Below, piece after piece: positions 36,531-64,000 of a DNA stretch of 64,000 nucleotides. How positions within the stretch are numbered: position 1 is the stretch's first letter; every line of letters starts with the position of its first letter. Under the pieces are notes generated by a model. That model was not told the DNA's origin, ran no database searches, and worked only from the letters and a program-made list of their open reading frames with translations. A program made the translations under genes and the position numbers. This stretch comes from Raphanus sativus (Eukaryota > Streptophyta > Magnoliopsida > Brassicales > Brassicaceae), in NCBI RefSeq assembly GCF_000801105.2, contig NC_079516.1:9610001-9674000 (forward strand), given 5' to 3'.

Positions 36531-36594
36531 TTAAAAAATGAGATCAAGGAGAGGAATAGAAAGAATCAGTCTCTGCCCTCATTTAACCGAATAA

Positions 36595-36849: not shown

Positions 36850-36852
36850 TAA

Positions 36853-37936
36853 CTAGACGTCACGCGCCCTTCTTTGCCACACGTAAATATTTAGCTGCAG
36901 AATCTGAACCTGACACCAACTGACATACTATCTGACACATGATACAATAACACTAGCCCAAATTCGGCTACAGCCTAAACCTCTAGCAACTCTCTCACCT
37001 TGCGTGGATAGGGAGGTAATTGCGCGGTCCCTTGATACCCGGGTATGCAAATACAGTTTTTATATTGATGAGTCCTACCTAATTACCGATTTAAATTAGG
37101 ATATTGAGTGAAACAGGCCTTTTATTTTCCTCCTATTTATTCCATTTTTCCCAATCACATTCTAAATATAAGATAAACAATCATATGTCATTTAAAATAA
37201 TTATTTATTATAGGCTTCGGTGTTTCGTTTTGATTGACTCAGATATTATCAAAGTTTGTTTTTTTTGCTTGAAGGAAAAAAAAATTGGAGGAGAAAGAAA
37301 TTCCAAAAGTCACAGCTATGCACAACGAGTTTCAGATTTGCGAGAAATCTCTCTTACCTGGAAGAAACTCTCGGTACGTTTAAAGACTTGAAGACAAAAA
37401 GTTTCGAACATTTTCAGATTAATTAAACATACCTTTTGAGTAATCGTTTGTTTTGTCGGCAACTTTAACTAGTCTTTCTTTCGGTTACATCAAGATTTTG
37501 ACGTAAATAATTAATTCACAATCAAAACAAAAGAAACACATGCAGGAGGAGAAGTTGTACTGAAAGTCTGAAAACATTAATGAAGAACTAAACAATACAC
37601 ACGGCAAGAGGAAGAAAAACAAAACACACGGGATGTTATTGAAAAAGTCATATTAATGGTTTCAAAGTCAAAAACTTGGAACTTTTCAAGAAATGCCTAC
37701 TCGCCGGTAGTCTTCGTTCACCTTCGTCTCTCTGTTTATATTATGACATAAAAGACTTATTTCATGATTGCAAATAAACAAAGAAAGAAAGAAGTGGACA
37801 AAATAAAGTAATACTATCAAACTGCGTTTCTGAATTTTAAATTCTGTGGAAACTATAGTATATTAGATAGTATTTACGGGGAGAAAACTTTTCAAAAATT
37901 AGGCTATTCTCGCTTGAGGTTGTTCTGTGAGCTCTA
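36853..37936 (+). promoter_or_regulatory. Upstream region of the MLO gene
   Basis: No gene seen; the short frames at 37104-37391 and 37837-38034 look accidental (the latter is antisense to MLO exon 1). The MLO promoter and 5' leader must lie in the last few hundred bases. A TTATATTATG sequence near 37735-37745 is a possible TATA region but I cannot place the start with confidence. Confidence 0.35.
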
Positions 37937-40900: not shown

Positions 40901-41105
40901 GTGGGATGTTGAGTCTCAACAGGAACCTTCTTCTTCTTCTTCCGCGAAGCATCATTCTAGGTTTAGGGAAGGAGACTCAGAGAACATGAGGAAGCCTTCT
41001 TCTTCTTCTTCAGCTGTGGAGCTTCCTCCTGGACCTGGACAAATAAGAACTCACCAGCATGAGATTAGTAGTATTAGCTTGAGGGATTTTTCTTTTAAGC
41101 GATGA
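37937..41105 (+). CDS. MLO6: MLO-family seven-transmembrane protein, MLO6 type
   Basis: Plasma-membrane protein of the MLO family; the Arabidopsis MLO2/6/12 group are susceptibility factors for powdery mildew. Thirteen exons: 37937-38062, 38418-38475, 38593-38858, 38958-39074, 39188-39248, 39322-39485, 39582-39726, 39818-39858, 39950-40123, 40231-40266, 40357-40424, 40502-40562, 40644-41105. All junctions are GT-AG and keep frame, giving 592 residues. Visible landmarks: first membrane segment (residues 18-35), the [11 protein letters not shown] segment, the invariant [14 protein letters not shown] loop, [10 protein letters not shown]...HGFIMAHLAPGS, the calmodulin-binding helix ([16 protein letters not shown]), a Ser-rich tail and the terminal DFSFKR motif. 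Position between RALF-like and LHCA3 genes matches Arabidopsis MLO6 (At1g61560), and residue choice fits MLO6 better than MLO2 or MLO12. Confidence 0.92.
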
Positions 41106-41624
41106 TTTTTCTTTCTTATATTGATTATTTATTAATATGTTTATAAGTTTCTATGGAAACAGTGTTCTTGTGTACATTTCACCTTTTTTATATATAATTA
41201 TTTCTCGTTTTAAATCTGTCACTTTTCAACTTTTAGCTACCAAAGTGTTATCTTATTGCTATAGACAATGTCTCAGGAAAAAATCTATGGAAAAGAAAAC
41301 TCTGAGCTAGCTAAAAAAATGTTCACATTGATATTCTTTGTGATGAGTGTGCTTTTCAAGCGTTACATAATTTCATAACAATTAAATATTTTAACTGAGT
41401 TTTTTTGGTTATTGCTAAATACCAACCATTAATCCTAGAAGTTGTTTCATTATGGCCACTGATATTGTCATTTCTTACAAAAGACGAATATGTTTACACA
41501 TGGTGTTACAACACAAAGAAACTGATGGTACCAAAGAGAAAGAAACAAGACTGTAGGATACAAGAGAATGGGAGACCAACAGACAACACCATGGGATGGT
41601 ATGATATGATATGTTATGATCACC
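41106..41624. other. Convergent intergenic region MLO6 / LHCA3
   Basis: The two genes end tail to tail 519 bp apart; the region must hold both 3' UTRs. No clear additional gene; the 77-codon frame at 41405-41638 overlaps the LHCA3 end and is accidental. Confidence 0.5.
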
Positions 41625-42619
41625 TCAGTGGAACTTGAGGCTGGTCAAGACATTGTTGTTGACGGGATCCGCCAAATGATCAAGAAGGTTCTGGTAAGGT
41701 CCCACACCGGTCACTAGTCCCTGGATAAAATAGCCAAGGATGGCGAGCATTGCCAGTCTACCGTTCTTGACCTCCTTGAGTTTCAACTCCTTCATCGACT
41801 TCTCGTCTTTTCCAAACCCTAGAGGGTTGAAGAAAGGTCCACCGGGGTAAGCCGGGTTACCTGAACCGGCGAAACCTTTCTCTAGACCCAAGAAGTATTG
41901 TTTACCCATAGATCCTGGGTTGTACCAGTCCTGCAACCTCCTGTGCTCAGCAAAACCCATCAAAGCCATCTCGAGAACAAAGAGTGTGTAAGGGTCTGCC
42001 CAGTAGCTGTACGTCCCTGCAGGTGGAATCACACCGGTCTGGAACCAGGGAAGAGCAGTGTCTGCTGGAATCAGACCGGCCTTTCCTAGAATCTCAGGTG
42101 CAATAGCTCCAGCTGCACCCAACATAGCAAACCGCCCGTTGATGATCTCTCCGTAGGCTAGCCATCTCGGCTCGATGAACCCTCCAGTACCCTCTGGGTC
42201 TGAAAGACCAAGCGGGTCAAATCCAAAGTCGCCAGGTAAGCTGCAGAATCACAGCAACTCTCCAGTTAAAGAAATCAGTTTTCTAATAAACTTTACACGT
42301 CTTGAAGATTAAAGAAATCAAATCTTTGTAATTATTACCTGCCATCCAAGTAAGAGAGACTCTGTGATGATGCAAACCACAATTGCCTGTTTGCTCCTTG
42401 CTGAAACCAAAACACACAAATCCACGATCAGAAACTATTCAGTTCACACTGTTTGTTAAGTAAATAGAGAGCATCATGTACCTTGGCAGGTGGAGTTGAG
42501 GCAGCCTTAACAACCAACTTCCTCTGTGATACGGACACAGCTGGTTTTGTGCCGAATATCTGTCTAGCTGTCTGAACAGAGGAGGTAAGTGAAGAAGACA
42601 CAAGCGCTTGTGCTGCCAT
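41625..42619 (-). CDS. LHCA3: Photosystem I light-harvesting protein LHCA3
   Basis: Chlorophyll a/b-binding antenna protein of photosystem I in the thylakoid membrane. Exons (minus) 42619-42482, 42400-42339 and 42240-41625 give 271 residues. Residues 1 to about 40 are a chloroplast transit peptide rich in Ser, Thr and Ala ([20 protein letters not shown]). The mature protein shows the LHC helices: [15 protein letters not shown] (helix B with the chlorophyll-ligating Glu-Arg pair), the middle helix ending [11 protein letters not shown], and [18 protein letters not shown] (helix A/C repeat). The ending VLTSLKFH is typical of LHCA3. It sits next to MLO6 as in Arabidopsis (At1g61520). Confidence 0.95.
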
Positions 42620-42800
42620 TTTTTTTGCTTAAACTTTTTCTCTTCTGTCACCAAGAGACGATGATTATTGAGTAATGGTCTGCAGGGAACTGTTAAAGAG
42701 TACAAGGAACAAGGTCCACTAGAACTACTTGTGGTTTTGAATTAGCCCAACTGGTTTTGGTCAGATTAGATTAGTATCTGCTTCACCAACTACATCTGCC

Positions 42801-42825
42801 CACGTGGCAACATGAGTTGGATAAG
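42801..42825 (-). promoter_or_regulatory. G-box and I-box upstream of LHCA3
   Basis: CACGTG (42801-42806) and GATAAG (42820-42825) lie about 180-205 bases upstream of the LHCA3 start codon. This pairing is a well-known light-response module of photosynthesis nuclear genes, fitting the gene's expected control. Confidence 0.6.
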
Positions 42826-42899
42826 AGATTTTGTTTGTGTTTTTTCTTATCTACCACACAAGAGCGAAAATAGTCTTTACATTAAAGCCAAGTGGATAA

Positions 42900-44998
42900 A
42901 AAAAATTATCAAATGATTTATTTATTGGCAAATTTGAATAGATATCTACCTCTGTGGTTAAAAGAACAACTTGGCTTTACTTTTAGCATGAATCAGTTCC
43001 CCATTGAACTATATAAATCAATTCAAATTTAAGTACAATATGTAAATTGTTTCAAATTGTATTGGCCGTTTGCTTCAGTTTTTTTTTTCCTGAAACACAC
43101 CTTTTGCTTCAGTTAAATCGTAAAATTCACAGCATTAAAGATTGGTAAGTCTCGAGGGTTGGCTCGAGTGCCTCTCACTGGCCCAGAACCATTAAATAAG
43201 TTGAAGATGTTAGACCGACGACCAGCCCACCAGCACTCTTTATGAATCTCTCTACATTGGTCATATTGGTATATATTTTCTTGTTGGAAAATATACTGTG
43301 GATCACCGATATATATTTCGACTTTATCATCTTCTTCTACTAGAAAGAGTATTTCATTACCATTCACATTTGACTTCATCATTCTGAGTCTAAAATCTTT
43401 TGTAAGCATTTTTCTAATTTTTTGCATAATTCATTTTTTCGAGGATTAAAACTCAAACTTTTTGCTTGAAAAATTGCTTTATCTGAGATTTGAAATCTAA
43501 ACATAAGTGCAGAAACTTTAAAACTTTGATCAATAGACTACAGTGCTTCCACGTGTGTTCTTGTATTATTTTCTGGTCATTTACTTAAGTCCGCTCATCA
43601 TTTTGTTATTTTGTCTAGTGGTTTGTATGAGAATGTAACAAATCCATCCGGTGAATTCCAGGTTAACTTTGCAGAGCATCGACCCCAACCTTTCAATTTT
43701 AAATCCTCACTGATTTCATAATTAGACTGTTAGTGCGTTTGACATTCACCTTTTAACAACCCTTCTACATGACAAGTTGTCACCAATTCTCACAAGACAA
43801 TTTGTCACCAATTTCCACAAGACAAACTATCACCCGTTGATCAGATAAATTGGTGACAACTTGTGCTGTGGGAAAGTTATTAAAGGTGAGGTTAGAGCTG
43901 GGAATTTGAGTTTTTACCCACGGGTCCCGTCCCATTTGATCCGCTGCGGAGCGGATGTGGGTCGACCGATTCAAAAAATTCAACATGCGGGTGCCAGTCG
44001 AGTCGAGTTTAAGCGGAACGGGTGCGGGTCGGCCGGATTTGAATCGCGGGTACCCGCTGACCCGCAAAAAAACTTATTTTTTTTCAAAGAAAAAAATAAA
44101 AAATTTGTAAAAATATATATAAAATATATATGCAATATTAGAAAATTATATAATCTTAATTATAAATATCTATTTTTAATTATAAATATATAATTTTACA
44201 AATTTAATAAAATTTAGTTAAACTATCTAATTGACTAAAAATATTCAAAATAACAAATAAAACAAATTAGAAAAATATTTTGAATACTCTTAAATATCTA
44301 AATCATCACATTTAACATATATAAAAAGATTAACATATTTAACTAATTTCAGATCTATTCGGATTTTAGTTCAGATTTTAGTTCGGAATATAATAAAGTT
44401 CCAAAATACTAACTTCATAAGTTCCGTTTGTTTATTTTTGTATAACAGTTCGAATCTGGTTTCGGCTTTTACGGTTCGAATTTAGGTAGATTTTTTGGGT
44501 TGGAGTAAAAGCTCTCAAGCCGAACATAGATAGATGTTTATATATTTCCTTTTGTCAAACAAAATAAAAATAAAATAAATGTGTATATATATATATACAG
44601 TATATATATCGCTGGTTCATGGTTGACGGGATAAAACGGAATTAGGTTTAACGAATTAACAAATACATGGAAATGACACAATTTTAAATACGAGGTCAAC
44701 CATTGCACGCTCAATTCCTTAATTTAAGTTAAATACTGGAATTCAAAGATTCAATGCATTTGGCTAACCGGTAAGCATTAGTATTACTATTTAATTTGCA
44801 TTATAGAACAAGGATTAAGTTGATCGTGAATAAAGTAATATAGAATCGTGGAAGATCGGCACTTGATCAACATTGTTTAGAGAATTTTACTTCACTAAGT
44901 ATTGAGTTTTGTTTTCTTGGCTTACTTTTCTCTTGCATACTTGTTCGTCTCTTACATTAATCTTAAAAGAGATTGTTCTTGGAGACACAAGAACGCTC
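42900..44998. other. Spacer with small fold-back and GC-rich repeat
   Basis: No certain gene. A 104-codon frame on the minus strand (43113-43427) has protein-like composition (acidic and Trp/Cys residues) but I do not recognise it. At about 43746-43889 inverted arms (CACCTTTTAACAAC and GTTATTAAAGGTG, plus GACAAGTTGTCACC and GGTGACAACTTG) form a small MITE-like fold-back. At 43915-44065 there is an unusually GC-rich patch repeating GCGGGT/ACCCGC words. The last 300 bp are the promoter of the receptor kinase and share TACGAGGTCAACCATT-like sequence with the second kinase at 53300. Confidence 0.45.
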
Positions 44999-47995
<2,997 letters not shown>

Positions 47996-48218
47996 GGGAA
48001 AAATTAAATGTTCGATGGAAATTGTAGAGCTGAGGAATGCTTATATTGTGAAATCAATTCTACAATCAATGAAAAACTCATCGATGAGTTTGTGAAGTTG
48101 TGAAACCAAAAAACTTTCGCAATAAAGCAGAATCAAAACCAAAATAAATCTATTTAAAAAAAAAACAGCACGCAGTAAGAATCTCAAGATAAAGAGAGTG
48201 TCATACATAATAATAAGA

Positions 48219-49687
48219 TCACTCGGACTGGAACACAAGTTGGCAAGAACTGGAAGCCCTGACGACAGCAGGCAATTCGTTGAGCATTTCTCGTCTTTTT
48301 GCTAACCTGAAGAGCCTTTTCGATTCAATGGGTTCTATGATGAAGGTTGCCTTCTTCAAGTGTCGTGCATTGCCTAGAATGTATCTGGCCACTTCTTTCT
48401 CTTCTTCTCTTATCCAATCAGGTCGTGTCCACACAAATGTCTCAAGATGCCACAACAAACATTGAGGGACACACTTGGGTTGGTTCCATTTCCCCGGCTC
48501 CATATTTTTCTTGTCCGAAACCAACTTTGGTTGTTGAGACGAATCCTGCACAAAGGAAAAGCAATGTATATTATTATTATTAATTAACAGACCTTCAAAA
48601 ACTGAAATTGCTTACATCAGTGAGCTTAAGAACTTGTAGCTTAGGAGAGCTATCAAGCATTACTGCAAGTAGATTCCACCACTCAACTTTATGTGAATAC
48701 ATCTCAAGATATACCAGCTGATAGAAGACAATTCCAGTAGGATATGCAATCTGGTCCATGAGACACTTATTAGTATTATTACAAAAAAAAAAAAAATAGT
48801 TCAATCAATCAAACCCGAGAAGTTACCTGCAAAGGTGATAAGTCCAAGCAAAGACGTTTGGTAGACTTAAGAGAAGCCATAATAGTCTCATTGGTTATAT
48901 TCGAAACATTGCTAACATTCGCCTCTATTAGCAGCTCAGGCGCGTTCTCAATAAGACAATGCTCATAACCTTTCAACATTTGAATATTCAAGCGTACCAA
49001 AGAAGGAGCGTTTATCACATATCCCCCAATCCCATTCTCTCTTCCAACAAAATTCTCACCGTAAAGAGACAGCGTCTTGAGAGATGGAGACTCGATAACG
49101 AATTTCACCACATCGTTATAAGATCGATGGACGACCAAATGTTCAAGATTCGGGCAGCTAGAGAAAAGGTTTCGAATAGACTCACTGTCTTTGTAAACCA
49201 CAGAGTGAAGATGAAGAGTTCTAAGGGAGTTGAGAGACACCAAAGAAGGAATATCTAGAAGAACGTGATGCTTGAACTTCAAGGTCTCAAGCGTGTCGAA
49301 ACAAAACAAGCTGCTTGGAAATCTGATGGGGGGATCGCTATAACCAAAGTGGAGATCAAGCTCGAGGTCACGCACGTGGCGTGTGATTGCGATTCCAGCC
49401 CATACTCCAATGTACACGTCGTCGCATCTATCGTTTAGTTTCAGATGGAGAGTGTTCAAGATGGGAGATTTATGTGAAAGCAAAGACTTGGAAACACTCT
49501 CTGCGAATTTCTTTATATCTCCTTTGGATTCGAACCGGAGAACCGGCACCATTTTCCAAACGCACCGCCATCGCTTAGACAGAACACTTGTGGCTATGAC
49601 AAGTTTTGTTGGGAGTAAAGACAATATCTGCAGAATCAAAGGTTCTGGTAACGCACTGATTCTGTCCACTACATCTCGCTTCCTCAA
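48219..49687 (-). CDS. F-box / LRR / FBD protein
   Basis: Likely substrate-recognition subunit of an SCF ubiquitin ligase; the target is unknown. Exons (minus) 49687-48827, 48750-48616 and 48545-48219 give 440 residues. The N-terminal F-box reads [21 protein letters not shown] and [10 protein letters not shown] (about residues 8-45), followed by leucine-rich repeats (for example [21 protein letters not shown]) and a C-terminal FBD domain ([12 protein letters not shown] onward, with [16 protein letters not shown]). This three-part structure defines a very large Brassicaceae family with fast turnover. Similar genes flank the S-domain kinase cluster in Arabidopsis (around At1g61330). Convergent with the kinase gene, 223 bp apart. 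Confidence 0.88.
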
Positions 49688-49999
49688 ACTTTCTCCACTA
49701 AAAAAAAATCAAACATTAAGATTTAAGAGTCAGAGTTTGAAGCTTACTGTACTGTCAAGAACGGTTCATAGAAGTAAAAGAAGATCGAACAGAGAAACTA
49801 ACCATTGTTCCATGTTCTTCGGATTCGTTCCTCCTCGTTACGAAGAATTGGACGCAGACAAACGTTTCGAAGAAATGGAGGAAGCGAAAGGTTTTAAGAC
49901 ACTAGGGCTTCATGATTATAACCGATCGGTTTTGGTCGGACCGAACCCAATCCAATATGGTCACTTTCGTCTAATTGGTTAATATACATACAATGTTGC
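49688..49999. other. F-box gene upstream region
   Basis: Holds the 5' UTR and promoter of the minus-strand F-box gene. The long plus-strand frame crossing this region (49383-49982) is antisense to the F-box coding exon and not a gene. Confidence 0.5.
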
Positions 50000-51455
50000 T
50001 GTGTTCAAAAACGCGGCCTAGTTGCCGAGTAATCGGCCGAGTAGGCGCTAGGCGTCACCTTAGCGTGGAGAAAACACTCAATTCGGCTAGTCTAGGCGGT
50101 CAACAAGTTATTCTCGCGTTTGACCGAATAATTAAAAAATCACCGTATAATTGTGTAATCCGAGTAGGCCCAATTGGCCAATTCTCCATATTTATCTATA
50201 ACAAAACACGAAGCCCATACTTTTTTTTCCTATTTCCAAGTGCTCTGATCTTTTCTTTAATTATACTAAGTTGAGTTTGAGATTTTATTTGTGGAAGAAA
50301 CCCTAATATCACGATCTCTGAGTTTCAACCCAAGAACAAATCGAGTGTTCAAATCTAAGACCAAATCAGGTACTGGATATCTATTTTCACTTGATTTCCT
50401 TCTTTATTTCTTTGTGTTTACTTGACTTCAATTAGTTTCTGGGTTCTTGTTTTATCTTTTGGCTTTTGTTTCATCTTGTTTCATCGTGGTTAATATACTC
50501 ATATTTTGGCTTTTGTTAATTTTGTGAAGTTTCTCATATGTGTTCATTATGTCTGAGTTTACTACTAGTATAAGATAAATGTCGTATTTCTCTTGAAGAT
50601 AAAGGTCTCTGCTCTTCTTCATTGTTACTAAAAGACTTGATTTTGGTTCAACTAGTTAACTGTGTTTTTAGATTGTGTATGATTTTTCTGGCTAAAGAGT
50701 AAAGAGTTATATGTTTTCAGTTGACTTTTTTTTCCTCATGTTCTGTTAATAATTATTTAGGATATTACTGATGGTTTGTTTCATTATGTCACTTAGGAAT
50801 CAATGGATGATCCACCGACAGATAGGCCTCCACCTCTTAAGCGTAACTCAAATGATGTAGGATGGCAGTATGGAGTCTTGTGTGATTCAAGAAGTCTAGA
50901 CAAAGTTAAGTGTAAATTGTGTGGAAAAGAGTTTTCTGGTGGTGTGTTTAAAATGAAAGAACAGAGATAAATGAGGAACGTGATGTTTTGTTTTCAAGTC
51001 ATGTTTTTGTTTTTGTTTGTTTTTGCTTTCAAAGTCAAGCTGACATCGTTTTCTTTTTGTTTGCAGGTGTAATGTATAAGATATAACTTCTAACACATCT
51101 CTCTACTACACAGTGATAACTTGATCTTTAAAGATTATAACTTACTTTTTGTATATTCTTAAGATCAAGACAATCTTTTTTTGGTGTATCCCGTGTATAG
51201 AAATTAGCTTTTGTATTTTGAACTAGATGTGTATTAGAAGAAATTTCAATATATTTTGGAGTATAAGCTTTGTGTTATAAATTTATAATATATCTTATGA
51301 ATTAAAATATATCAATTATTTGATGAAAAAAAATATATATATATATATAACTAAAAATTACTCCCCGAGTACTCCCCGTTTAATCACCGCTTTTTTGATA
51401 ACTCGCTAGGCCCGACGTCGCCGCCCGACTCGCGCCTAGCGCAATTTCGAACATG
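50000..51455 (+). mobile_element. hAT-type relic with BED-finger exon
   Basis: Termini TGTGTTCAAAA (50000-50010) and TTTCGAACATG (51445-51455) are inverted with mismatches; flanks AATGTTGC (49992-49999) and AATGTTGT (51456-51463) differ at one base, fitting an 8-bp hAT duplication. The subterminal zones share GC-rich CGCTAGGCG and CGGCCTAG words, in contrast to the AT-rich interior. The interior keeps one recognisable transposase piece (50803-50970) but no dimerisation domain, so most of the gene has been deleted. Confidence 0.65.
50803..50970 (+). pseudogene. Truncated hAT transposase: BED zinc-finger start
   Basis: A 55-residue frame beginning MDDPPTDRPPPLKRNSNDVG with the BED-finger half-site KCKLCGKEFSGGV (Cys-x2-Cys). 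In complete proteins two histidines follow after about 15 residues; here the frame reaches a stop in KMKEQR before them. It is therefore the N-terminal scrap of a hAT transposase, probably left by internal deletion. A preceding intron-like sequence (50370-50795) and TTAG before the start suggest it was once a second exon. Confidence 0.65.
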
Positions 51456-51463
51456 AATGTTGT

Positions 51464-53595
51464 AGTAGTCCCTTTCACTTATCACATGCATTTTTTTTTA
51501 TCAAGCGTGGTTTTATTTCATGTCCATAATTTACACAAATGCTTGTAAATGCGTGGAAAATTCTAGAAAATTTTATATTTCACATAAAAAATAATTATCT
51601 ATCAAACACAAAATAGTTTATTATTGTGTTCAAATTTTAAAAACACTTACATATTAAAAATATTTTAGAAAATATATTTATACAAATACTTTTGCTTGAT
51701 TATTGTTTAACTATAAAATATATTATATATTAATTTAAAGATATATATATATTAAAATATTAAATCGTCATTATTTTTAAAAGTAACTAATTGTTATACA
51801 AATTCTTATTAATTCAATATACATATATTGTGAGAAGTCAGTAATATATGTATATTGAATTAATAAGAATTATTATAACAATTAGTTACTTTTAAAACAT
51901 AAATCGACATTATTTTTAAAAATAACTCTGTAAATTAATACTCGATAAATTAATAAACATCACAAACCAAATATCTCAAATAGCATAATCATCTTATAAT
52001 TTATCTTCGTACAAATAATTAAGAAACGACTTCTAATTTATAAAAATAAAACAAAATATTAGTTATGTTAGCTAATGTCACTCTGTACCAATCATCAATT
52101 TTTATTTTTTCCACTTGATCTTAACATACAAAATCTAATTGAGAAACGACTTCTAATTTATAAAAATAAACATAATATTAATGCGTGAAACTTTAAACAA
52201 TTATTGTTATGTTACCTAGTGTCACTCTGTACCAATCATCAGTTTAATTTTTTTCCACTTGATCTTAACATACAAAATCTCATTATGAATAAATCATAAA
52301 TTAAATAAATCATCAAACCAATCATCAAAATTATAAATATAAATTAAATATAAAATGATCATGAAACCAATCACATATCATCAAACTGATCTAAATTCTA
52401 ATACTCAAAATCAAAAGTTCAATTGAGTCAAGAACATACTATTGTTTACAATAATTTTATATTTTATTTTATACATGTAAATTATAAAAACATAAAATTA
52501 ATTCATTATTTTTAATTCTTATAAATATTTAAATCCGTATATTTCAAAAAATAATTGGTTATTAGTTCTACAACCTCAAACCAAGGAACACTTCATTTTT
52601 ACTACTTGTTTTCCAAAACTACATCTATTAAATTATACATAAATTTATAGAAATATTGTATGTCAAAAATTAAAATAAATACAAACTAACAAAATTAATC
52701 AAATATAGAAAACAAAAATTATGATTTAGTTCAGATGAAAACATAAAACTCAGTTTACCTAAAATAACTAAACCAATCAAATTTTGTGTATCATAGTCAT
52801 ATGTTTAATTCATATAATAACACAAGATATTGATTTTTTACTTATTTCCTTACATATGTATTATTATAAACCAATTTTAATTATAAAAATGAAAGTAAAA
52901 ACTGAACAATTATTTATTTATATTACAAATATTTATTGGTGTATGAACAAGGGAGAGTCACCTAGTAATTAGTAAACAAACGTTAACCCTAACTCTAACA
53001 TGACAGAATTGAAGATGTGATCTAGTCAGTAAGATGTGCTGCATCAATGATATGTCCCAGTGAAATGCCTGAACGAAATGTAATGCTTCAAAAGCTTTAA
53101 CAGAAAAAATAGATGATTATGGACGTACAAAAGACTTGTATTGTTCAGTCTCAATAAACCCTTTGTTTTTTTATTTAGTTGGTCGTTGGTCGATTTATTT
53201 TTGTCTTGCATCTCTGTTGTTAGGCATACGCATGAGATTGCGTATTCAAGCTCCAACTTTTAATTGAGTTAACAAGAGACATGAAAATGACACGATGTTT
53301 CAATATGAGGTCAACCATTAAAAGGTTGTTTGAGTTCCAAGGCTGGACTTCTAAAATTCAATTATTTGGGTCCAGCTTGTTTTATAATATGCTTTATATT
53401 ATAAAACAAGATTTTATAAAACAAGATTTTATGTAAGATCTTGGAAGATGGGCATATGGTCAACATTTTTTCCAGGTGCTTGACAATAATTCCCATAATT
53501 CATAGAATTCGTTTTTTGGCATACTTTTTCTTGCATTCCTGTTATCTTCTCCCTCTAGTCTGAAGGAAATCAATCTTGGAGACACAAGAACTAAC
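51464..53595. repeat. AT-rich spacer with hairpin and tandem duplication
   Basis: No gene. A near-perfect palindrome lies at about 51775-51897: arms of about 50 bp (around AACTAATTGTTATA and TATAACAATTAGTT) with a 13-base loop. A unit of about 120-145 bp containing CACTCTGTACCAATCATCA is tandemly duplicated at about 52020-52139 and 52141-52284. From about 53280 the sequence resembles the promoter of the S-domain kinase at 44999 (GAGGTCAACCATT near 53308; CTTGGAAGAT near 53442). Confidence 0.55.
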
Positions 53596-53756
53596 ATGGG
53601 GACAACTAGGTTTGCTTGTTTGCTTCTGTGTACTATGCTCTTAAGTTTTAGTTATGCAGTTTTGACGCCAACAAAGCCTTTGTCAATAGGACAAACCATC
53701 AGCTCCTCTGACGAGGTCTGTGAATTGGGGTTCTTCAGTCCAAATAACACCCAACA
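53596..53756 (+). pseudogene. 5' fragment of a second S-domain receptor kinase
   Basis: Encodes the signal peptide and first 54 residues of an S-domain kinase, close to residues 1-54 of the complete gene at 44999 (shared PLSIGQT.SSSD and [11 protein letters not shown]). Homology stops abruptly at CCAACA, where the LTR retrotransposon begins. The remaining lectin, PAN and kinase exons are not found on the other side of the retrotransposon, so this is a truncation and not a simple insertion. Upstream promoter sequence is also shared with the intact gene, showing it was once a tandem copy. Confidence 0.85.
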
Positions 53757-54126
53757 TGTGACAGGATCAGTCACAACGTCGGTTCTCCATAATCTGATTT
53801 CCTTATTTCTGGTTTTCTTTTACTATTTAGCTTTATGTTAATTTTCCTTTTCTTAATAACTAAACCTCTTCTTTGGTTGCTATATATATGTAGCCTTACG
53901 GCATATCTTAATCATCATTCAAAAATCAATAAAAGCTTTCTTAACCTATAACTTATCTCTCAAGTTACTTTGCTAAGTTCATACGAAAGAGCTTCGCATA
54001 CGAACTCTGGTTTCCGAGTTGATCCTTCTTCATTCGTGATCATCTCCTAGACCTTTGTTTACCCGTTCTTCGAATCCACAGTAGGATTCCTAGTTTGGGA
54101 TTTATCTATCCAAGTTTCCCGTCTCA
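53757..54126 (+). repeat. 5' LTR
   Basis: 370 bp, begins TGTGACAGGATCAG and ends CCCGTCTCA. By eye it is identical to the 3' LTR, which implies recent insertion or recent gene conversion. Confidence 0.93.
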
Positions 54127-54170
54127 GTGGTATCAGAGCTACTCCATCCTCTAGGACCGACTACAACACC

Positions 54171-57100
54171 ATGGAAACAAGAGCAACAACCACTATGGCT
54201 GAGATGAACAAACAAATCGAGGACCTCCGTATTTCACAGACTAAACAAACCGAAGAATTAGGAGGAGAAATCGCTGAGCTCAAAGCGATGATGGCAAAAT
54301 ATTTTGCGAATCCTCCACCTCCAGCGCAACAAGAAGGTTCTTCTGGTCTTACAGCAGCAGAAAAATCTGATGAAATTAACCCGCCAGATCGAAATATCGG
54401 AGACCAAAGCGCAACAAGAACAGCTCCACTCAACCCCGCAGCTACCCCTAACCCACCACTCCCCAATAGTTTATCCGCACGACTAACAAAAATTGGGTTC
54501 CCAATGTTTGATGGCTCCGAACTCAGAGAATGGATTTATCGCTGCGAACAATTCTTCTCTATTGATAGTACCCCACCAGAATTGAAAGTTCGTCTAGCCT
54601 CCCTCCACATGACCGGCAAAGCTCTGCAATGGCATCACGCCTATATTGCAAATCGCTACAACATCTTTCCTCTCTGGCCGGAATATGTTGCTGCCATAGC
54701 TGAACGCTTCAGTGAACTTTTTGACGATCCTCTTTCTGAGTTAGTTAGCTTGAAACAAGGAAGCGACCCTATCGATGTTTACTTGGAGAAATTTGACTGT
54801 GCCATGAACAGATTAACACTTGCTCCAGGTCACGCCTTGAGTATCTTTCTCACGAACATGAATCAACACCTCGCCCTCCATGTCCGTCAGTTCAACGTCA
54901 CGACAGTTCCAGCCGCAGCAAGAATTGCCAAGCTCCATGAATTGTCTCTTCTCCACACACCGGTGAAAGCAACCAAAACCTCGTTCAACTATTCTCAAAA
55001 ACAGAATTCATCGCCATTCTACAAAAATCAAAACCAAACAACGAGTTCTGCAGCACCGACCACCAACACAAAACCAATCATCCCCAACACACCACACAAA
55101 CGCCTTTCTTTCGACGAGATGCAAGAGCGCAAACGCAAAGGATTATGCATGTTTTGCGAAGAACCATTCACTCCTGGCCACCAATTGAAACACAAAAGAT
55201 CTCAGATCTTGTATTTAGAAGCTGAGCAAGGAGAAGTATCAGATGACGATGATGAGGAAACCCCAGCCGAGTTTGAGCTTGAAAACCATGATGACAAAAC
55301 ACCTACAATTTCAGTTCACGCTTTAAATGGTTCCACGACATACAACTGCATGCGAATCATGGGTCAGCACGGGAAGAAGAAACTCCACATACTTATTGAT
55401 CCAGGAAGTACTCATAATTTTCTTGACCTACAGATAGCAAAGTTATTGGGTTGCAACTTGAAAACCACCAAACCAATGCCCGTGGTAGCAGCAGGTGGCG
55501 ATCTCATCACCAAGTATAAGTGCAGTGAGTTTACTTGGAAAACACAGGGCTACGAGTTCAAAACAGAGATTCGAACTCTACCTCTTGGATGCAGTGATCT
55601 CGTACTTGGTGTGCAATGGCTTTCAACATTAGGACCCATCTTATGGGATTTCTTAAACCTCCGTATGGAATTCACTTTCAACGGCCTGAAACATGTTCTC
55701 AGAGGAGTTACACCGAACAGTTCGACAGTTATTTCGAGCAGCAGCCTCAACAAATTGATGTTACAAGAACCGCCAATGGCACTACTGCACCTGCAAGAAA
55801 TTGACGAAACAGCAGGCTCACACCAAAGTCTCCAACCGGATAAAATTTTATATCACATTGAGGCTACAAATCCAGAACAAGACAAGTCAGGCTCATTGCA
55901 ACAGCTTCTTCAAAAATACTCAGACGTTTTCGAAGAGCCTACGACTTTACCTCCTTTTCGTGACGGGTTCAATCATAAGATACCTCTGGAATCAGGAGCC
56001 AACCCAGTCAATTTGAGACCTTATCGCTATTCTTCACTACAAAAAGACTCAATCGACACAATGGTTCAAGAGATGCTTACCCAAGGAATTATTCAATACA
56101 GCTCGAGCCCATACGCGTCGCCAATAGTTCTCGTGAAGAAGAAAGATGGTTCGTGGCGGCTTTGCGTTGACTACAGAGGTCTCAACAAACAAACAATTAA
56201 AGACAAATACCCAATACCCCTCTTGGAAGACTTACTTGATGAACTCGGTGGCGCTAGACTTTTCTCTAAACTTGATCTTAGGGCTGGATTTCATCAACTA
56301 CGAATGGACCCTGCGGACGTACATAAAACCGCGTTCCGGACTCACTCAGGCCATTACGAGTACCTCGTAATGCCGTTTGGCCTCACAAACGCTCCTTGCA
56401 CGTTCCAAGGCCTCATGAACCATGTCTTTGAGCCAGTACTTCGGAAATTCCTTTTGGTATTTTTCGACGACATCTTGATATACAGCAATACGTGGGAAGA
56501 ACACATGCTTCACTTGGATATGGTTTTTGCGATTTTACGACATCAACAACTCTATCTCAAGAAGTCCAAGTGCACCTTTGGAGCAACCAGGATCGAATAC
56601 CTCGGCCATTTTATCTCTTACGATGGCGTTAGTACAGATCCCGCAAAGGTCAAAGCAGTAGAACAATGGCCAACTCCAGCAAACCAGAAACAGTTACGGA
56701 GTTTTCTGGGTCTCGCAAATTACTACCGTCGCTTTATCCAGGCCCACAGCATTATTGCACGACCTCTCACCCTACTGCTCCGAAAAGACAGTTTTTTATG
56801 GTCTTCGGAAGCCTCTGCAGCGTTTCAGACATTAAAGGAAGCTTTAATATCAGCCCCTGTCCTTGCTTTGCCAGACTTCTCCAAACAATTTATCATCGAA
56901 ACAGATGCTTCACAGACAGGAATCGGCGCGGTTCTAATGCAAGATAACCATCCTATCTGTTATATTAGCAGAGCACTAGGTCCCCGCCATCAAAACCTAT
57001 CAGTTTATGAAAAAGAACTCCTAGCAGTAGTACACGCGGTACAGACATGGAACCCTTACCTCGCACACAACAAATTCATCATCCGCACCGATCAGCGAAG

Positions 57101-58709
57101 TTTAAAGTATCTCCTGGAACAAAAGATTACAACACCCTTTCAGCATATGTGGCTGTCAAAGCTTATGGGTTACACTTTCGAAATCCAATATAAGCAAGGC
57201 AAGGAAAACGTTGCAGCAGACGCTTTATCTAGAGTTTCTGGTTCTCAACTTCTCAACCTTGCCTTATCTCAGATACACCATGGCTTCTACGAGAACCTCA
57301 AACTTCTTTGGGACTCTGACCCAACCCTTAAGAAGATCATTGACGATCTGCAGTCACAGCCAGCAAAACACTCTGCATATTCCTTCGTTAATGGAGAATT
57401 ACGGAGAAAAGGCAAGCTCGTCGTTGGTAATGATCAGGCCGTCAAAACTCATATCTTTCAATGGCTACACGATTCTGCAGCTGGTGGCCATTCTGGAAGG
57501 GACTCCACTCTCCAACGAATCAAGTCTTTGTTCTTCTGGCCCAAGATGAGCTTGGAAACACAGAACTATGTCCGTAATTGTTCTGTTTGTCAGAAAAATA
57601 AATATGATCTTGCTGCAAAACCAGGATTACTGCAACCACTTCCAGTTCCTGCAGGTGTTTGGGAATCCGTAAGTCTCGACTTCATTGAAGGATTACCACC
57701 ATCATCTGGGAAACACTGTATTCTTGTGGTCGTCGACAGACTTAGCAAAAATGCTCACTTCTTGGCGTTATCTCATCCTTATACAGCCATGGATATTGCT
57801 AAGCTCTACTTGGATCAGGTCTTTCGTCTTCACGGCATGCCTAAAGATATCACAAGTGATAGGGACCCGACATTCCTTAGTGAAGTTTGGCGTGAAATGT
57901 TTCGAGTTCACGGTGTTGACCTTAATTTTTCAACCGCGTATCATCCCCAGACGGACGGTCAGACAGAAGTTACAAACAAAACTCTTGAGACATACCTCCG
58001 TTGTATGACTTCTGATTCGCCCCATTCATGGAGTTCATGGTTACCTTTGGCTGAATGGTGGTATAACACCACGTTTCATTCTGCAATACGTAGCAGTCCT
58101 TATGAGATCATCTATGGGCAACCTCCCCCAGTACACATGCCTTATCTTCCGGGCGAAAGCACATCACCTTCTGTTGATCGATCACTACAGAAACGAGAGG
58201 CTGTTATCGATCTTATGAAGTTCCATCTTCTCAGAGCTCAAAATAGGATGAAGCAGTATGCAGACGCACGTCGCTCTGATCGTGACTTCAAAATTGGAGA
58301 TTCAGTCTACTTGAAACTTCAGCCGTACCGTCAACACTCTCTTAAAGGCCGCAACATCCCACACAAGCTGTCACCACGATATTATGGTCCATTTCAGGTG
58401 CTTGACAGAGTTGGTTCTCGTGCTTACAAACTGGCACTCCCTCCAAATGCTGCAATTCACAATGTCTTTCACGTAAGCCAGCTCAAGTTTTGTCCTAACC
58501 CACCTAGTTCAGCTCCCAAGCTTCCTCAATATCTGAATGATGTCGGGACAAGCAAAGAACCTGAGTTAATACTAGAGAAGAAGATGGTGAATCGGCAGAA
58601 TAAAGCAGTCACAAAAGTATTAGTCCAATGGAAAGGATTTTCACCACAGCAAGCAACTTGGGAATTTTATCAAGACTTCATTGCCAAGTATCCAGACTTC
58701 CATCCTTGA
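54171..58709 (+). CDS. Gypsy gag-pol polyprotein with chromodomain
   Basis: One uninterrupted frame of 1512 residues, encoding everything needed for copy-and-paste transposition. In order: coiled-coil start and Gag (about residues 1-300, with GKALQWHHAYI and LVSLKQGSDPIDVYLEKF), a zinc knuckle-like CMFCEEPFTPGHQLKH (about 325), aspartic protease (LIDPGSTHNFLD, about 410), reverse transcriptase (RLCVDYRGLN; catalytic FFDDILIYS, about 765), RNase H (FIIETDASQTGIGAVLM), integrase with HHCC finger (GGHSGRD ... CSVCQKNK) and DDE residues (SLDFIEGL, TSDRDPTF, the Glu in QTEVTNKTLE), and a chromodomain (KVLVQWKGFSPQQATWE, about 1480-1500). Chromodomains steer integration towards particular chromatin. 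No stops or frameshifts, so it may be active. Confidence 0.95.
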   Translation: METRATTTMAEMNKQIEDLRISQTKQTEELGGEIAELKAMMAKYFANPPPPAQQEGSSGLTAAEKSDEINPPDRNIGDQSATRTAPLNPAATPNPPLPNSLSARLTKIGFPMFDGSELREWIYRCEQFFSIDSTPPELKVRLASLHMTGKALQWHHAYIANRYNIFPLWPEYVAAIAERFSELFDDPLSELVSLKQGSDPIDVYLEKFDCAMNRLTLAPGHALSIFLTNMNQHLALHVRQFNVTTVPAAARIAKLHELSLLHTPVKATKTSFNYSQKQNSSPFYKNQNQTTSSAAPTTNTKPIIPNTPHKRLSFDEMQERKRKGLCMFCEEPFTPGHQLKHKRSQILYLEAEQGEVSDDDDEETPAEFELENHDDKTPTISVHALNGSTTYNCMRIMGQHGKKKLHILIDPGSTHNFLDLQIAKLLGCNLKTTKPMPVVAAGGDLITKYKCSEFTWKTQGYEFKTEIRTLPLGCSDLVLGVQWLSTLGPILWDFLNLRMEFTFNGLKHVLRGVTPNSSTVISSSSLNKLMLQEPPMALLHLQEIDETAGSHQSLQPDKILYHIEATNPEQDKSGSLQQLLQKYSDVFEEPTTLPPFRDGFNHKIPLESGANPVNLRPYRYSSLQKDSIDTMVQEMLTQGIIQYSSSPYASPIVLVKKKDGSWRLCVDYRGLNKQTIKDKYPIPLLEDLLDELGGARLFSKLDLRAGFHQLRMDPADVHKTAFRTHSGHYEYLVMPFGLTNAPCTFQGLMNHVFEPVLRKFLLVFFDDILIYSNTWEEHMLHLDMVFAILRHQQLYLKKSKCTFGATRIEYLGHFISYDGVSTDPAKVKAVEQWPTPANQKQLRSFLGLANYYRRFIQAHSIIARPLTLLLRKDSFLWSSEASAAFQTLKEALISAPVLALPDFSKQFIIETDASQTGIGAVLMQDNHPICYISRALGPRHQNLSVYEKELLAVVHAVQTWNPYLAHNKFIIRTDQRSLKYLLEQKITTPFQHMWLSKLMGYTFEIQYKQGKENVAADALSRVSGSQLLNLALSQIHHGFYENLKLLWDSDPTLKKIIDDLQSQPAKHSAYSFVNGELRRKGKLVVGNDQAVKTHIFQWLHDSAAGGHSGRDSTLQRIKSLFFWPKMSLETQNYVRNCSVCQKNKYDLAAKPGLLQPLPVPAGVWESVSLDFIEGLPPSSGKHCILVVVDRLSKNAHFLALSHPYTAMDIAKLYLDQVFRLHGMPKDITSDRDPTFLSEVWREMFRVHGVDLNFSTAYHPQTDGQTEVTNKTLETYLRCMTSDSPHSWSSWLPLAEWWYNTTFHSAIRSSPYEIIYGQPPPVHMPYLPGESTSPSVDRSLQKREAVIDLMKFHLLRAQNRMKQYADARRSDRDFKIGDSVYLKLQPYRQHSLKGRNIPHKLSPRYYGPFQVLDRVGSRAYKLALPPNAAIHNVFHVSQLKFCPNPPSSAPKLPQYLNDVGTSKEPELILEKKMVNRQNKAVTKVLVQWKGFSPQQATWEFYQDFIAKYPDFHP

Positions 58710-58738
58710 GGTCAAGTATGTTCTGAAGGAGGGAGTAT

Positions 58739-59108
58739 TGTGACAGGATCAGTCACAACGTCGGTTCTCCATAATCTGATTTCCTTATTTCTGGTTTTCT
58801 TTTACTATTTAGCTTTATGTTAATTTTCCTTTTCTTAATAACTAAACCTCTTCTTTGGTTGCTATATATATGTAGCCTTACGGCATATCTTAATCATCAT
58901 TCAAAAATCAATAAAAGCTTTCTTAACCTATAACTTATCTCTCAAGTTACTTTGCTAAGTTCATACGAAAGAGCTTCGCATACGAACTCTGGTTTCCGAG
59001 TTGATCCTTCTTCATTCGTGATCATCTCCTAGACCTTTGTTTACCCGTTCTTCGAATCCACAGTAGGATTCCTAGTTTGGGATTTATCTATCCAAGTTTC
59101 CCGTCTCA
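58739..59108 (+). repeat. 3' LTR
   Basis: 370 bp, begins TGTGACAGG directly after the polypurine tract and ends CCCGTCTCA, followed by GTACGCC of the upstream region of the next gene. Confidence 0.93.
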
Positions 59109-59699
59109 GTACGCCATCTTCCAAAACCCTTTGAAGAGAGAAAGAGAGGTTCTGTTCTGTTGATCGGAAAGGACGGACACTTTTGCCGCGTCGGTGTTTT
59201 TTTCTTTCTTCAGCCAATACGAAAAAGAAAAAATAATTTATCAAATTGGCCCCCGTAACTATTCTCATGTTTCGATAATCGCCCTGTATTAAAACATTGA
59301 CACGTTAGCCCCCCCACGAAACGAAAGGATCTGAAACTAAAAACCGTATGGACTTTCTCCACATGCCACGTGTATCACAACCTTTCTCCTCTCCTCTTTG
59401 CTGCTACTAACGTTTCGGTCCGACAGGTTCAAAGCTTGACACCAAACAAGACAAGATTTTTCGACAAGATTTGATCTACTACATCTCAGGTTCTCTCATC
59501 TTCTTCTTCAGATTCTCATCTATGTTCAATGATCACTAATAGATCCAAATTTAATTATTGTGAATAGAATCTGAAAGTTTTGGTTGGTTAATCTCTATTC
59601 GAATCTCATACTGTTAGATCGATTACAGCTCGAAAACGAAAATGAATCGATAAAGTTTGTATTTTTATTTTATTTCTGTACAGGTGAATCATAAGAAAG
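59109..59699 (+). promoter_or_regulatory. Upstream region of the TOM1-like gene
   Basis: No coding sequence. A CACGTG G-box core sits in CCACGTGTATC (about 59368). CT-rich leader sequence and a possible 5'-UTR intron (donor near 59487 in CTCAGGTTCTC or later, acceptor TGTACAG ending near 59683) precede the start codon. None of this resembles the S-domain kinase interrupted by the retrotransposon. Confidence 0.5.
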
Positions 59700-61045
59700 A
59701 TGGACAAATTGAAGATAGCTGAGTGGGGAGAGAAGCTGAAGACAGGAGGAGCTCAGATGAGCAGGATGGTGAGCGAGAAGTTCAAAGACATCCTCCAAGC
59801 TCCGACCCTGGAATCAAAAATGGTTGACGAAGCAACTCTCGAGACTCTCGAGGAGCCTAACTGGGGAATGAACATGAGGATATGCGCTCAGATCAACAGC
59901 CAGGAGTTCAACGCCGCCGAGATCGTCAGAGCCATCAAGAGGAAGATCTCTGGTAATAACAAAAGCCCCGTGAGCCAGAGGCTGAGCCTTGAGCTTCTCG
60001 AGGCTTGTGCTATGAACTGTGAGAGGATTTTCTCTGAAGTTGCTTCTGAGGGTGTTCTTGATGAGATGGTTTGGTTGGTTAAGAACGGTGAAGCTGATTC
60101 CGAGAACAGGAGCAGAGCTTTTCAGCTTATTAGAGCTTGGGGACGGTCTAAAGATCTTGCTTATCTTCCTGTTTTCAAGCAGACTTATATGGTATAACTA
60201 AGATCCTCTCTGAATCTTATGATCCAAAGTGGTTTTTGTTAATGTTCTTATTTGTTTGTTAAGAGCCTGGAGGGAGAGAATGGTTTGAACGCTCGTAACG
60301 AGGAGAATCCAGTGGCGGGACAGAGTTCTCTGGAGTCTCTCATGCAACGCCCTGTTCCAGTTCCTCCACCTGGTAGCTATCCGGTTCCTCCTAATCAAGA
60401 ACAGGCTCGTGGGGACCATGATGGTGGTCTTCTTGACTATAACTTTGGGAACTTATCGATCAAGGATAAGAAAGAACAGATTGAGATTACACGGAACAGC
60501 CTCGAGTTGCTCTCTAGCATGTTGAACACTGATGGAAAGCCGAATCACACAGAGGTAATCTATGCGTTATCCACTCATGCAAACATACCTCCTTGAACAG
60601 TTATTTTTGAGTCTGGAAAGATTGAATCTTAACTTGAGATTGACACAACAAAGATAAGTTATGGTGTTTAACTTATATGTTATGGTTACAGGACGAGCTA
60701 ACAGTAAGCCTGATGGAGAAATGCAAGCAGTCACAACCGTTGATTCAAATGATCATAGAGAGCACAACAGACGATGAGAGTGTTCTTTTTGAGGCTCTGC
60801 ATCTGAACGATGAGCTCCAACGCGTTCTATCCATTTACGATGAAACTAAGAAGAAGGCGTTGTCCGTGGTGGACCAAGAATCATCAGGAAGCAAAGATGC
60901 TGGTGGTCCGAAACCAACAGAAGAACATCTTGTGAAACAAAAGGATGAACATCCAGAATCACCAGGATCCTCCAACAAGACTGGTAAAGAAGATAAGCAG
61001 GTGAAAATAGAACTCGGGTTATCCAGTGATGAAGATGAGAAATGA
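59700..61045 (+). CDS. TOL2: TOM1-like VHS/GAT domain protein (ubiquitin sorting)
   Basis: Endosomal adaptor that binds ubiquitinated membrane cargo and passes it towards ESCRT; plants use TOL proteins in place of ESCRT-0. Exons 59700-60191, 60264-60554 and 60692-61045 give 378 residues. VHS domain about residues 15-160 (TLEEPNWGMNMRICAQIN, SLELLEACAMNCERIF, AFQLIRAWGRS), proline-rich linker (PVPVPPPGSYPVPP, about 195), GAT domain about 225-320 (LELLSSMLNTD, LMEKCKQSQPLIQMIIE), then an acidic tail ending LGLSSDEDEK. Length and ending fit Arabidopsis TOL2 (At1g06210), the immediate neighbour of the CLO splicing GTPase gene, and the same pair occurs here. TOL3 or TOL4 are less likely alternatives. 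Confidence 0.88.
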
Positions 61046-62126
61046 GCAACTCTGATATGTTTGTCTTCTTACGACATGGTTATCAGAATGTTGTAGAAGA
61101 TTTCATTGTTCTTTTGATGTTTACTTCTGCAATGTACTTTCTACTATATGTTTATGGAACCTTTCTTAGCTTCATTTTCTTTGCTATTGTTTCTCTTGAC
61201 ATTATAAAGGCGAATCTTCACCCGCCATCGTATGTATTCATCATTTACGTTTGGTGTTTTAGTAAGTATTTTCTAAATCTATAACCCTCTACCTGGGTTA
61301 GAGGCTTCAATCTTAGAACTTAACTCTGAAACCTCTTCCTGAGCTAGAGGCTTTTCTGTTATAAACCTAACTCTAAAATCTCTCCCTTTTTCTCTTCGAC
61401 GGCTCCGTTAAACACAACAGTGCTCAGAGTCTCGGACGAACCGAATCGCCGAGCAATCCTTCTCTCACCTCTCACTCTCTACCCTCGTCTCGCCGTTCGC
61501 TCGCATCTCGCACTTCCCAACTGGTTCGTCCTCTCACTCCTTAACTCTGTTTTTTCGCTATCATCTCGAGAAGTTTGTGGTTGATTCTAGCTTAGGGTTT
61601 TACTCGAGTTCAAGCTAGCTCAAGTTTGTAGATGTAGATGATTCGCGAGCTTAGAGTTTTTCTCTAGTCCAAGTTACCTTTGGTTTCTAATTTGATTAGA
61701 GCTTGGGGTTTTGCCTGGTACTCTCACAGACGCTTTGGTAAACTACGATAGGATCCTTCGTTTCCGTTTATGGCGATTGTGCTTACCGTTTTGATTGTTA
61801 GCTCGTTTTTACGCCTTGATGTTGTGGTGATAGCGTCTGGGTTTCATGTCTTACGCTGCATTACTCCTTAGCATTTTTTTCCAGATCCGAGAATTGTTTT
61901 TTTTTTTGTATATTTAAGTGTTAATGTTTTTATAGTACTAGGGGGGGGGGGAGTTAGTGGCTCTTGGGTTTCAGATGAAATGAAAAACGTTGCAGCTTTC
62001 TTATGAACAAGCTAGCTTTTGTTGTGTTGTTCTGATTTGAGTTTGAGGCATTTTATGTTTATAGTTTATCTGCGCTAGAGAATTCGCATTTCTGATGGGA
62101 TTCTTTTTGACAGGTTTACATTAAAG
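61046..62126 (+). promoter_or_regulatory. Intergenic region and 5' UTR of the U5 GTPase gene
   Basis: First the TOL2 3' UTR, then a probable promoter near 61290-61440. The CT-rich leader (61380-61520) leads into a likely 5'-UTR intron with donor CTGGTTCGTC near 61521 or nearby and acceptor TTTTTGACAG ending at 62113. The intron contains TTAGGGTTT (61592-61600, a telo-box in reverse) and a run of about ten G near 61942. No other gene. Confidence 0.5.
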
Positions 62127-64000
62127 ATGGATGATAGCTTGTATGATGAGTTTGGTAACTACATTGGACCTGAGATCGAGTCCGACAGAGAGAGTGATGA
62201 CGAAATAGAAGACGAGGAGTTCCAGGATAAGCAGCCTGAAGAGGATGGATCAGATGGAGAGCGTGGGCCTGGGGGTTCTAACGGATGGATCACCACGATC
62301 AATGACGTGGAGATGGATAACCAGATTGTTCTCCCTGAGGATAAGAAGTACTATCCTACCGCGGAGGAAGTCTACGGGGAGGACGTTGAGACGTTAGTCA
62401 TGGATGAGGATGAGCAGCCTCTCGAGATGCCGATTATCAAACCTGTCAGAGATGTCAGATTCGAGGTTGGGGTGAAGGATTCCACGACTTACGTGTCAAC
62501 GCAGTTTCTCGTCGGCCTCATGTCTAATCCAGCGCTTATGAGGAATGTTGCTCTTGTGGGTCATATACAGCATGGGAAAACTGTCTTCATGGATATGTTG
62601 GTAGAGCAGACGCACCATATGTCTACTTTTAATGCTAAGAACGAGAAGCACATGAAGTATACAGATACAAGAGTTGATGAGCAGGAGAGGAACATTTCGA
62701 TCAAGGCGGTTCCGATGTCGCTTGTCCTTGAGGACAGCAGGTCTAAATCATATCTGTGCAATGTCATAGATACTCCGGGTCATGTGAATTTCTCTGATGA
62801 AATGACTGCTTCTCTAAGACTCTCTGATGGTGCTGTTCTAATTGTTGACGCTGCTGAAGGAGTGATGGTAAGTGTTTGCTTTTTTTTTAAAGCTAAAGTT
62901 GTTATTTGAAATTTGTTACTTGTATTAACGATATGTCTTTCTTTAGGTGAACACTGAGAGGGCTATAAGACATGCAATCCAGGACCATCTTCCTATTGTT
63001 GTTGTGATCAACAAGGTACGTTTCCATGCTATCTTTAATTTGTAAATTTGAGATGCGTTGTGAGATTTATATTTCTATACAGTCTACTTGACCTTTGCAA
63101 TATGTCGATTTTGTTCTCCATCAGGTTGACAGGCTTATTACCGAGCTCAAACTACCTCCAAGGGATGCTTATTACAAGCTGAGGCATACAATTGAAGTCA
63201 TTAATAACCACATATCTGCTGCTTCGACGACTGCTGGAAACTTGCCCCTTATAGACCCTGCAGCTGGAAACGTGTGCTTTGCCAGTGGTACTGCCGGATG
63301 GTCCTTCACTCTGCAGTCTTTTGCTAAACTGTATTCGAAGCTTCATGGGGTGGACATGGACGTGGATAAGTTTGCATCTAAGCTTTGGGGAGATGTGTAT
63401 TATCACCCTGATACTCGGGCGTTCAAGAGAAGTCCTCCAGTAGGTGGTGGGGAAAGAGCATTTGTTCAGTTTATTCTAGAGCCTCTATACAAGATATACA
63501 GTCAAGTGATAGGTGAGCATAAGAAGAGTGTAGAGACCACCCTTGCAGAACTGGGAGTGACCCTGAGTAATAGTGCATATAAGCTGAACGTCAGACCTCT
63601 ACTTAGGTTAGCCTGTAGCTCAGTCTTTGGTTCGTCATCAGGCTTCACTGATATGTTGGTAAAGCACATTCCTTCTCCCAAAGAGGCTGCAGCTAGGAAA
63701 GTGGACCACGCATACACTGGACCCAAAGATTCTGCCATTTATGAAGCAATGGTAGAATGTGATCCGTCTGGACCTCTCATGGTTAATGTGACAAAGCTAT
63801 ACCCCAAATCAGATACTAGTGTGTTTGATGTATTCGGAAGAGTTTACAGCGGTACACTTCAAACAGGGCAAAGCGTACGTGTACTTGGAGAAGGGTATTC
63901 ACCTGAAGATGAAGAGGACATGACTATCAAAGAGGTGACCAAGCTGTGGATATACCAAGCGAGGTATAGGATTCCTGTAAGCAGTGCCCCTCCCGGTTCA
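62127..64000 (+). CDS. CLO: U5 snRNP GTPase Snu114/EFTUD2-like (partial, 5' part)
   Basis: EF-2-like GTPase of the U5 snRNP that controls spliceosome activation and disassembly in the nucleus; Arabidopsis CLOTHO/GFA1/MEE5 (At1g06220). Exons seen: 62127-62867, 62947-63015 and 63125 to the window edge, 562 residues in frame, of about 990 expected. The acidic N-terminus MDDSLYDEFGNYIGPEIESD is diagnostic and separates it from cytosolic EF-2. GTPase motifs: G1 GHIQHGKT (residues about 144-151; EF-2 has GHVDHGKS), G3 DTPGH, G4 NKVD. Domain II starts near GPLMVNVTKLYP. The gene continues beyond 64000. Same strand as TOL2, start codons 2.4 kb apart. Confidence 0.94.

Follow-up and report, generated by a model that had tools for sequence, protein, structure and literature searches.

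Does the retrotransposon that stands between two gene blocks in the radish genome mark a real fusion of those blocks, or does it mark a false join in the assembly? The stretch in question, hereafter the window, is 64,000 nucleotides of Raphanus sativus (RefSeq assembly GCF_000801105.2, contig NC_079516.1, positions 9,610,001 to 9,674,000), which corresponds to C6:9610001-9674000 in the 433,372,886-base, 6,413-contig assembly that we searched. A first-pass annotation placed a retrotransposon exactly at the junction of a left block that we take to have At1g61-type gene order and a right block that is presumably of At1g06 type, and its observations hold for the sequence as assembled. The element has no target duplication (its flanks read CAACA and GTACG), its two long terminal repeats (LTRs) show 0 differences over 370 bp, and its left LTR cuts an S-domain kinase gene, whose frame from 53596 is broken off at 53756. 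To its right lie a complete TOL2 gene with its upstream region and then the start of CLO/SNU114. With the kinase paralogue at 44993 as query, neither tblastn nor blastn gave a convincing match to the remaining kinase exons on the right, and the idea that they are hidden there was dropped. The junction is a property of the assembled sequence, not necessarily of the chromosome. Sequence comparison of its two arms with the rest of the assembly leads us to put at about 90% the probability that it is an assembly chimera around an ordinary young insertion and not a real block fusion. The junction is named nowhere in the excerpts we consulted of the literature on Arabidopsis loci, Brassica breakpoints, radish assemblies and misassembly.

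Both arms of the junction are assembled elsewhere

The sequence immediately left of the element (window 53000-53600) is found at 100% identity three times: in the window itself, at a point 28.7 kb farther on in C6, and on an unplaced contig, C2143. Across a 100-N gap on C6, the assembly contains 17.4 kb of the left arm a second time, differing from window 36328-53756 by 3 mismatches and 64 gap openings over 17,453 aligned columns. All 3 mismatches fall within the first ~2.1 kb of the later C6 contig, and its first ~2.7 kb, up to window position 39000, hold 59 of the 64 indels; the remaining ~14.8 kb contain 5 indels and 0 substitutions. In this second copy the kinase continues without the element, and the allele reads CCCAACATCAATATC, with a single CAACA.

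The unplaced contig C2143 (17,127 bp, read on its reverse strand) carries window 47030-53756 for a third time, and the alignment of its left flank and element to the window spans 12,084 columns, in which there are 12 gap openings and no mismatch. On C2143, CAACA stands on either side of the element and is followed by the 3' part of the kinase, which is identical to that of the element-free C6 allele over 3,360 of 3,360 columns. The insertion of the element in the kinase on this contig is an ordinary, canonical one. A three-way alignment of the 6.7-kb left flank from the window, the later C6 contig and C2143 gave 0 substitutions in every pair; the pairwise counts of single-base indels were 6, 10 and 10, with one indel due to the point at which the slice was cut. 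Right of the insertion, C2143 and the later C6 contig agree at every one of 3,359 bases before a segment of ~1.28 kb sets them apart; the 1,723 columns beyond it hold 2 mismatches and 6 gap openings. Because of this segment and of the mismatches and gaps beyond it, these two contigs probably represent two closely related haplotypes rather than one.

Two further observations concern this locus. The ~1.28 kb at C6:9695782-9697053 (window-relative 85782-87053) is missing from C2143, with near-identical DNA on both sides; it is a second presence/absence difference between the haplotypes and perhaps another mobile element. In the element-free kinase (C6:9692267 onward, window-relative 82267), the reading frame shifts at about codon 145 and then runs into stops, and C2143 shares the kinase DNA at the frame-shift site; the target kinase may already have been a pseudogene when it was hit, with a sequencing error shared by both contigs as another possibility.

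The right arm leads to chromosome C8. Followed through the end of the window to C6:9674919, it is identical to C8:703254-709064 at 5811 of 5811 bases, with 0 gaps, and the contig stops at a 100-N gap 5.8 kb into this C8 sequence. On C8, GTACGCC is preceded by CGATAT with no element between, and the sequence left of the native TOL2 site is CGATATGTACG. The interval C8:683001-723000 contains no N, and the window with its extension gave a single blastn match of at least 150 bases to it, the right arm; therefore no element is present at the C8 locus. With 11 of 11 candidates scored, window 59111-60200 has no 100% match other than the window itself and C8. Beyond CLO, on the right-hand side of the C8 locus, Pfam identifies DUF455 and Lipase_3 (class 3 lipase) frames, which presumably correspond to At1g06240 and At1g06250. 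Five of the eight C8 frames tried had no Pfam match, among them a left-hand frame (9245-9619) that resembles what we take to be the S26-type peptidase At1g06200. These frames fit the Arabidopsis gene order At1g06200-06250. C8 is the expected context of TOL2 and CLO, and the copy beside the element is an extra rendering of it.

A chimeric contig or a rearranged chromosome

Both arms are continuous elsewhere without the join, the left on the later C6 contig and on C2143, the right on C8. The contig that holds the junction (10814-64919), bounded by 100-N runs at 10714-10813 and C6:9674920-9675019, is accordingly almost certainly chimeric, because C2143 has the canonical insertion, the later C6 contig runs through the kinase, and the right arm equals C8. 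The first-pass annotation had named a false join across a repeated element as a serious alternative. Its false join is strongly supported, although the second near-identical copy that would act as the repeat was not found in an LTR search that scored 40 of 60 candidates.

The sequence of events that we propose begins with a young Ty3/gypsy element with an open gag-pol frame, which would have inserted normally in the kinase of one haplotype, generating the CAACA duplication and leaving the other haplotype without the element. The junction contig would then have traced the haplotype with the insertion as far as the end of the element and passed from there into TOL2-CLO sequence of C8, and scaffolding would have placed it beside the contig of the element-free haplotype, so that the left arm appears twice on C6. 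The assembly itself shows the correct insertion, the element-free allele, TOL2 at its native site and both arms in duplicate. The wrong exit may have come from reads of another insertion of the element, absent from the assembly and lying ~590 bp upstream of the start codon of TOL2, with GTACG as its duplication. We infer such an insertion because the join sits at the exact LTR end, a precision that hints at a recent second insertion upstream of TOL2. We lean toward the view that the element is near-single-copy and has moved very recently in the sequenced stock, and that the right junction of this second insertion, which the reference otherwise lacks, survives in the chimeric contig. The basis for recent movement is that the kinase insertion is present in one haplotype and absent from another, with 0 substitutions over ~14.8 kb on its left.

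The junction contig resembles known chimeric or redundant long-read contigs with uncollapsed haplotypes in several respects: both arms are assembled twice at 99.6-100% identity, the join is at a mobile element, N gaps surround the contig, and the assembly Rs2.0 has many duplicated BUSCOs. Table 1 of PMC10831357 gives 20.9% duplicated BUSCOs for radish Rs2.0 (cv. WK10039) versus 7.8% for Bakdal, a high share that redundant contigs would help explain; the same table lists Rs2.0 at 433,430,583 bp in 6,424 scaffolds, 6,413 of them unplaced, which is near, not equal to, the assembly searched here. Repeat-driven misjoins, however, usually involve abundant repeats, and no second near-identical copy of the element at this join was found among the LTR candidates scored.

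Several points weigh against a chimera. The junction lies at the exact end of the LTR, which random chimerism would rarely produce. Some reads probably carry LTR-GTACG-TOL2, as they would from a true recombinant too. An LTR search of the assembly, in which 40 of 60 candidates were scored, found no second near-identical copy, so that a misjoin through a repeat shared by two loci can only be proposed. Should several plants have contributed to the sequenced DNA, there could be a third haplotype.

In a variant of the chimera itself, included in the probability given above, the end of the element was attached to C8 DNA by a chimeric read or an error in the assembly graph, and no second insertion exists. 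We regard this variant as possible but doubtful. In its favor, neither a second element copy (40 of 60 LTR candidates scored) nor a left TOL2-side junction was found in the assembly, which also holds other apparently redundant contigs, yet a random break would be expected to fall on the last base of the LTR only rarely, on the order of one in several thousand positions.

Real ectopic recombination between the kinase copy and a copy upstream of TOL2, giving a C6/C8 translocation or a duplicated TOL2 segment in some plants, is improbable. The first-pass annotation preferred recombination of this kind, producing a translocation or large deletion, and the junction does share with translocations caused by LTR elements their classic signature: exact LTR ends on both sides with unmatched flanks, in arms that are otherwise intact. 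It differs from them in that no second near-identical copy, among the LTR candidates scored, and no reciprocal product was found and that both unrearranged loci are present. The kinase locus is otherwise either a normal insertion or empty, the TOL2 block is intact on C8, and the right arm differs from C8 at 0 of 5811 bases. The element-free and normal-insertion kinase haplotypes already assembled are enough to fill one diploid plant, which argues against a true translocation, an argument that pooling of plants would weaken. The predicted reciprocal junction did not appear: the left flank of the native TOL2 site (C8:702001-703000) occurs at 100% on C8 only, once (8 of 8 candidates scored), and none of the four near-identical LTRs, from the window and C2143, is preceded by GTACG. 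Recombination and the two-locus misjoin, the two mechanisms proposed originally, each need a second near-identical element.

An old block rearrangement with later insertion of the element exactly at the fusion point has a negligible chance of being correct, with no observation in its favor, and was rejected, as both original arrangements are present, intact and continuous, in the same assembly (C2143 and C8) and an insertion there would leave matching flanks. An end-joining deletion after a normal insertion was likewise rejected, since it would need to stop at the exact LTR end and C2143 retains the right side.

For users of this reference in radish and Brassica synteny work, the chimera that we favor means that the inter-chromosomal block fusion is false and that one of the TOL2/CLO copies is spurious. 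Such joins can be tested for quickly by looking on unplaced contigs for the element between matching flanks. The locus carries little weight as a finding on chromosome evolution and moderate weight as a hint that the element moved recently. Should the second insertion prove real, the radish line would be a natural system in which to watch an active plant Ty3/gypsy element.

The retrotransposon and its relatives

The element (53757-59108, 5,352 bp) is of the Ty3/gypsy chromodomain type (Table 1). Pfam places gag, protease, reverse transcriptase, RNase H, integrase and chromodomain in this order in one frame, with the matches to rve, Ty3_capsid and Chromo slightly under the curated cut-offs. Two extra bases (GT) beyond the LTRs are also common to both; we attribute this to chance because related copies end in GTCTCA (two of those listed in ATCTCA), followed by a primer-site-like motif or host flank. 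The motif TGGTATCAGAGC is presumably the complement of initiator tRNA-Met. At a rate of 1.5e-8 substitutions per site per year, 0 differences in a 370-bp LTR give an upper bound of ~0.27 million years for the age of the insertion. The element shares with plant chromoviruses the one-frame coding order, TG...CA LTRs, a likely initiator-tRNA-Met primer site and, at the correctly assembled copy on C2143, a 5-bp target duplication; in these comparisons no unusual feature was found.

The LTR search, whose counts are lower bounds, returned four matches at 99-100%, all belonging to the one insertion as it appears in the window and on C2143. After these four comes an LTR at C4:345446 that is 96% identical and aligns over the LTR and 11 bases only; other matches are at 71-90%, with those above 84% extending over only ~100 bases. 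The 96% LTR (C4:345446-345814) is followed by a primer-site-like motif and then by sequence to which blastn aligned none of the element's first 1.9 kb, and is possibly part of a non-autonomous or rearranged relative.

Target sites were sampled by fetching 30 loci of 40 LTR matches, and both outer flanks could be read for nine insertions, the window included, with LTRs paired by position. An exact 5-bp duplication is present in 6 of the 9: C2143, C8:21.75, C8:24.35 and C1:18.07 Mb, and the solo LTRs at C1:8.51 and C6:26.15 Mb. The insertion at C1:24.46 Mb matches at 4 of 5 bases, that at C4:24.76 Mb, whose LTRs are 73-74% like the query, has no duplication, and the window element is the ninth, also with none.

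Table 1. Positions of the features discussed, numbered from the first base of the window
Feature	Position	Strand	Details
Probable false join	59108..59109		exact LTR end against TOL2 upstream region (GTACG)
Junction contig, probably chimeric	10814..64000		continues to C6:9674919 (919 bases beyond window); judged by left- and right-arm comparisons
Left arm	36328..53756	+	assembled again on C6 past gap, window-relative 65020-82427
Right arm	59109..64000	+	59109-64919 base for base equal to C8:703254-709064
5' LTR	53757..54126	+	TGTGAC...GTCTCA, 370 bp
Likely primer-binding site TGGTATCAGAGC	54128..54139	+	by position
Single gag-pol open reading frame	54171..58709	+	gag, protease, reverse transcriptase, RNase H, integrase, chromodomain
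Likely polypurine tract GAAGGAGGGAG	58725..58735	+	by eye and position
3' LTR	58739..59108	+	same as 5' LTR, 370/370
S-domain receptor-like kinase paralogue	44993..47992	+	B_lectin, S_locus_glycop, PAN_2, kinase domain; Pfam of exon 1 and one kinase exon
Second S-domain kinase, 5' end of exon 1	53596..53756	+	cut by element; last 5-mer CAACA
TOL2 (TOM1-like 2)	59700..61045	+	exons 59700-60191, 60264-60554, 60692-61045, fitted by hand
CLO/SNU114 start (EFTUD2-type U5 small nuclear ribonucleoprotein GTPase)	62127..64000	+	Pfam EFTUD2 domain; runs past window

Gene order in relatives and other features

The cut kinase shares 74% protein identity over 54 residues with its paralogue, which seems intact when its frames are judged by eye. 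Homologous-protein searches with TOL2 and MLO6 give weak hints on block order in relatives, the matches in Sinapis alba, Hirschfeldia and Eruca being on draft contigs. In Sinapis alba, TOL2 (N665_0629, with a second at N665_0790) and MLO6 (N665_0040) lie on differently named contigs, and the best matches lie on differently sized contigs in Hirschfeldia (2,124,090; 10,635,972 and 14,559,679) and in Eruca (413,252; 546,507). Brassica rapa has copies of both genes on one chromosome, which from the letter of the BRARA_I tags we take to be of A09 type, with tags almost 4,000 apart and so not adjacent (BRARA_I05418, BRARA_I01498).

Other oddities were seen in the window and the assembly. Positions 8129-10713 repeat 12185-14789 at 96.7%, and 7295-8067 repeat 11382-12155 at 90.8%, the first copy (7295-10713) ending exactly at the N gap 10714-10813. 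Either an uncollapsed haplotype or a genuine tandem duplication could account for this repeat, and the gene found in both 8129-10713 and 12185-14789 is presumably RPL3-like. On the unplaced contig C2190, positions 12524-15223 give the same series of TOL2-homeologue matches as C1:3620994-3623696, with nearly equal scores, and C2190 is probably another redundant contig. Within the At1g61-like gene block, several long frames lie on the minus strand at 23149-29846; by eye we take them to be a CACTA-type transposase with accessory frames.

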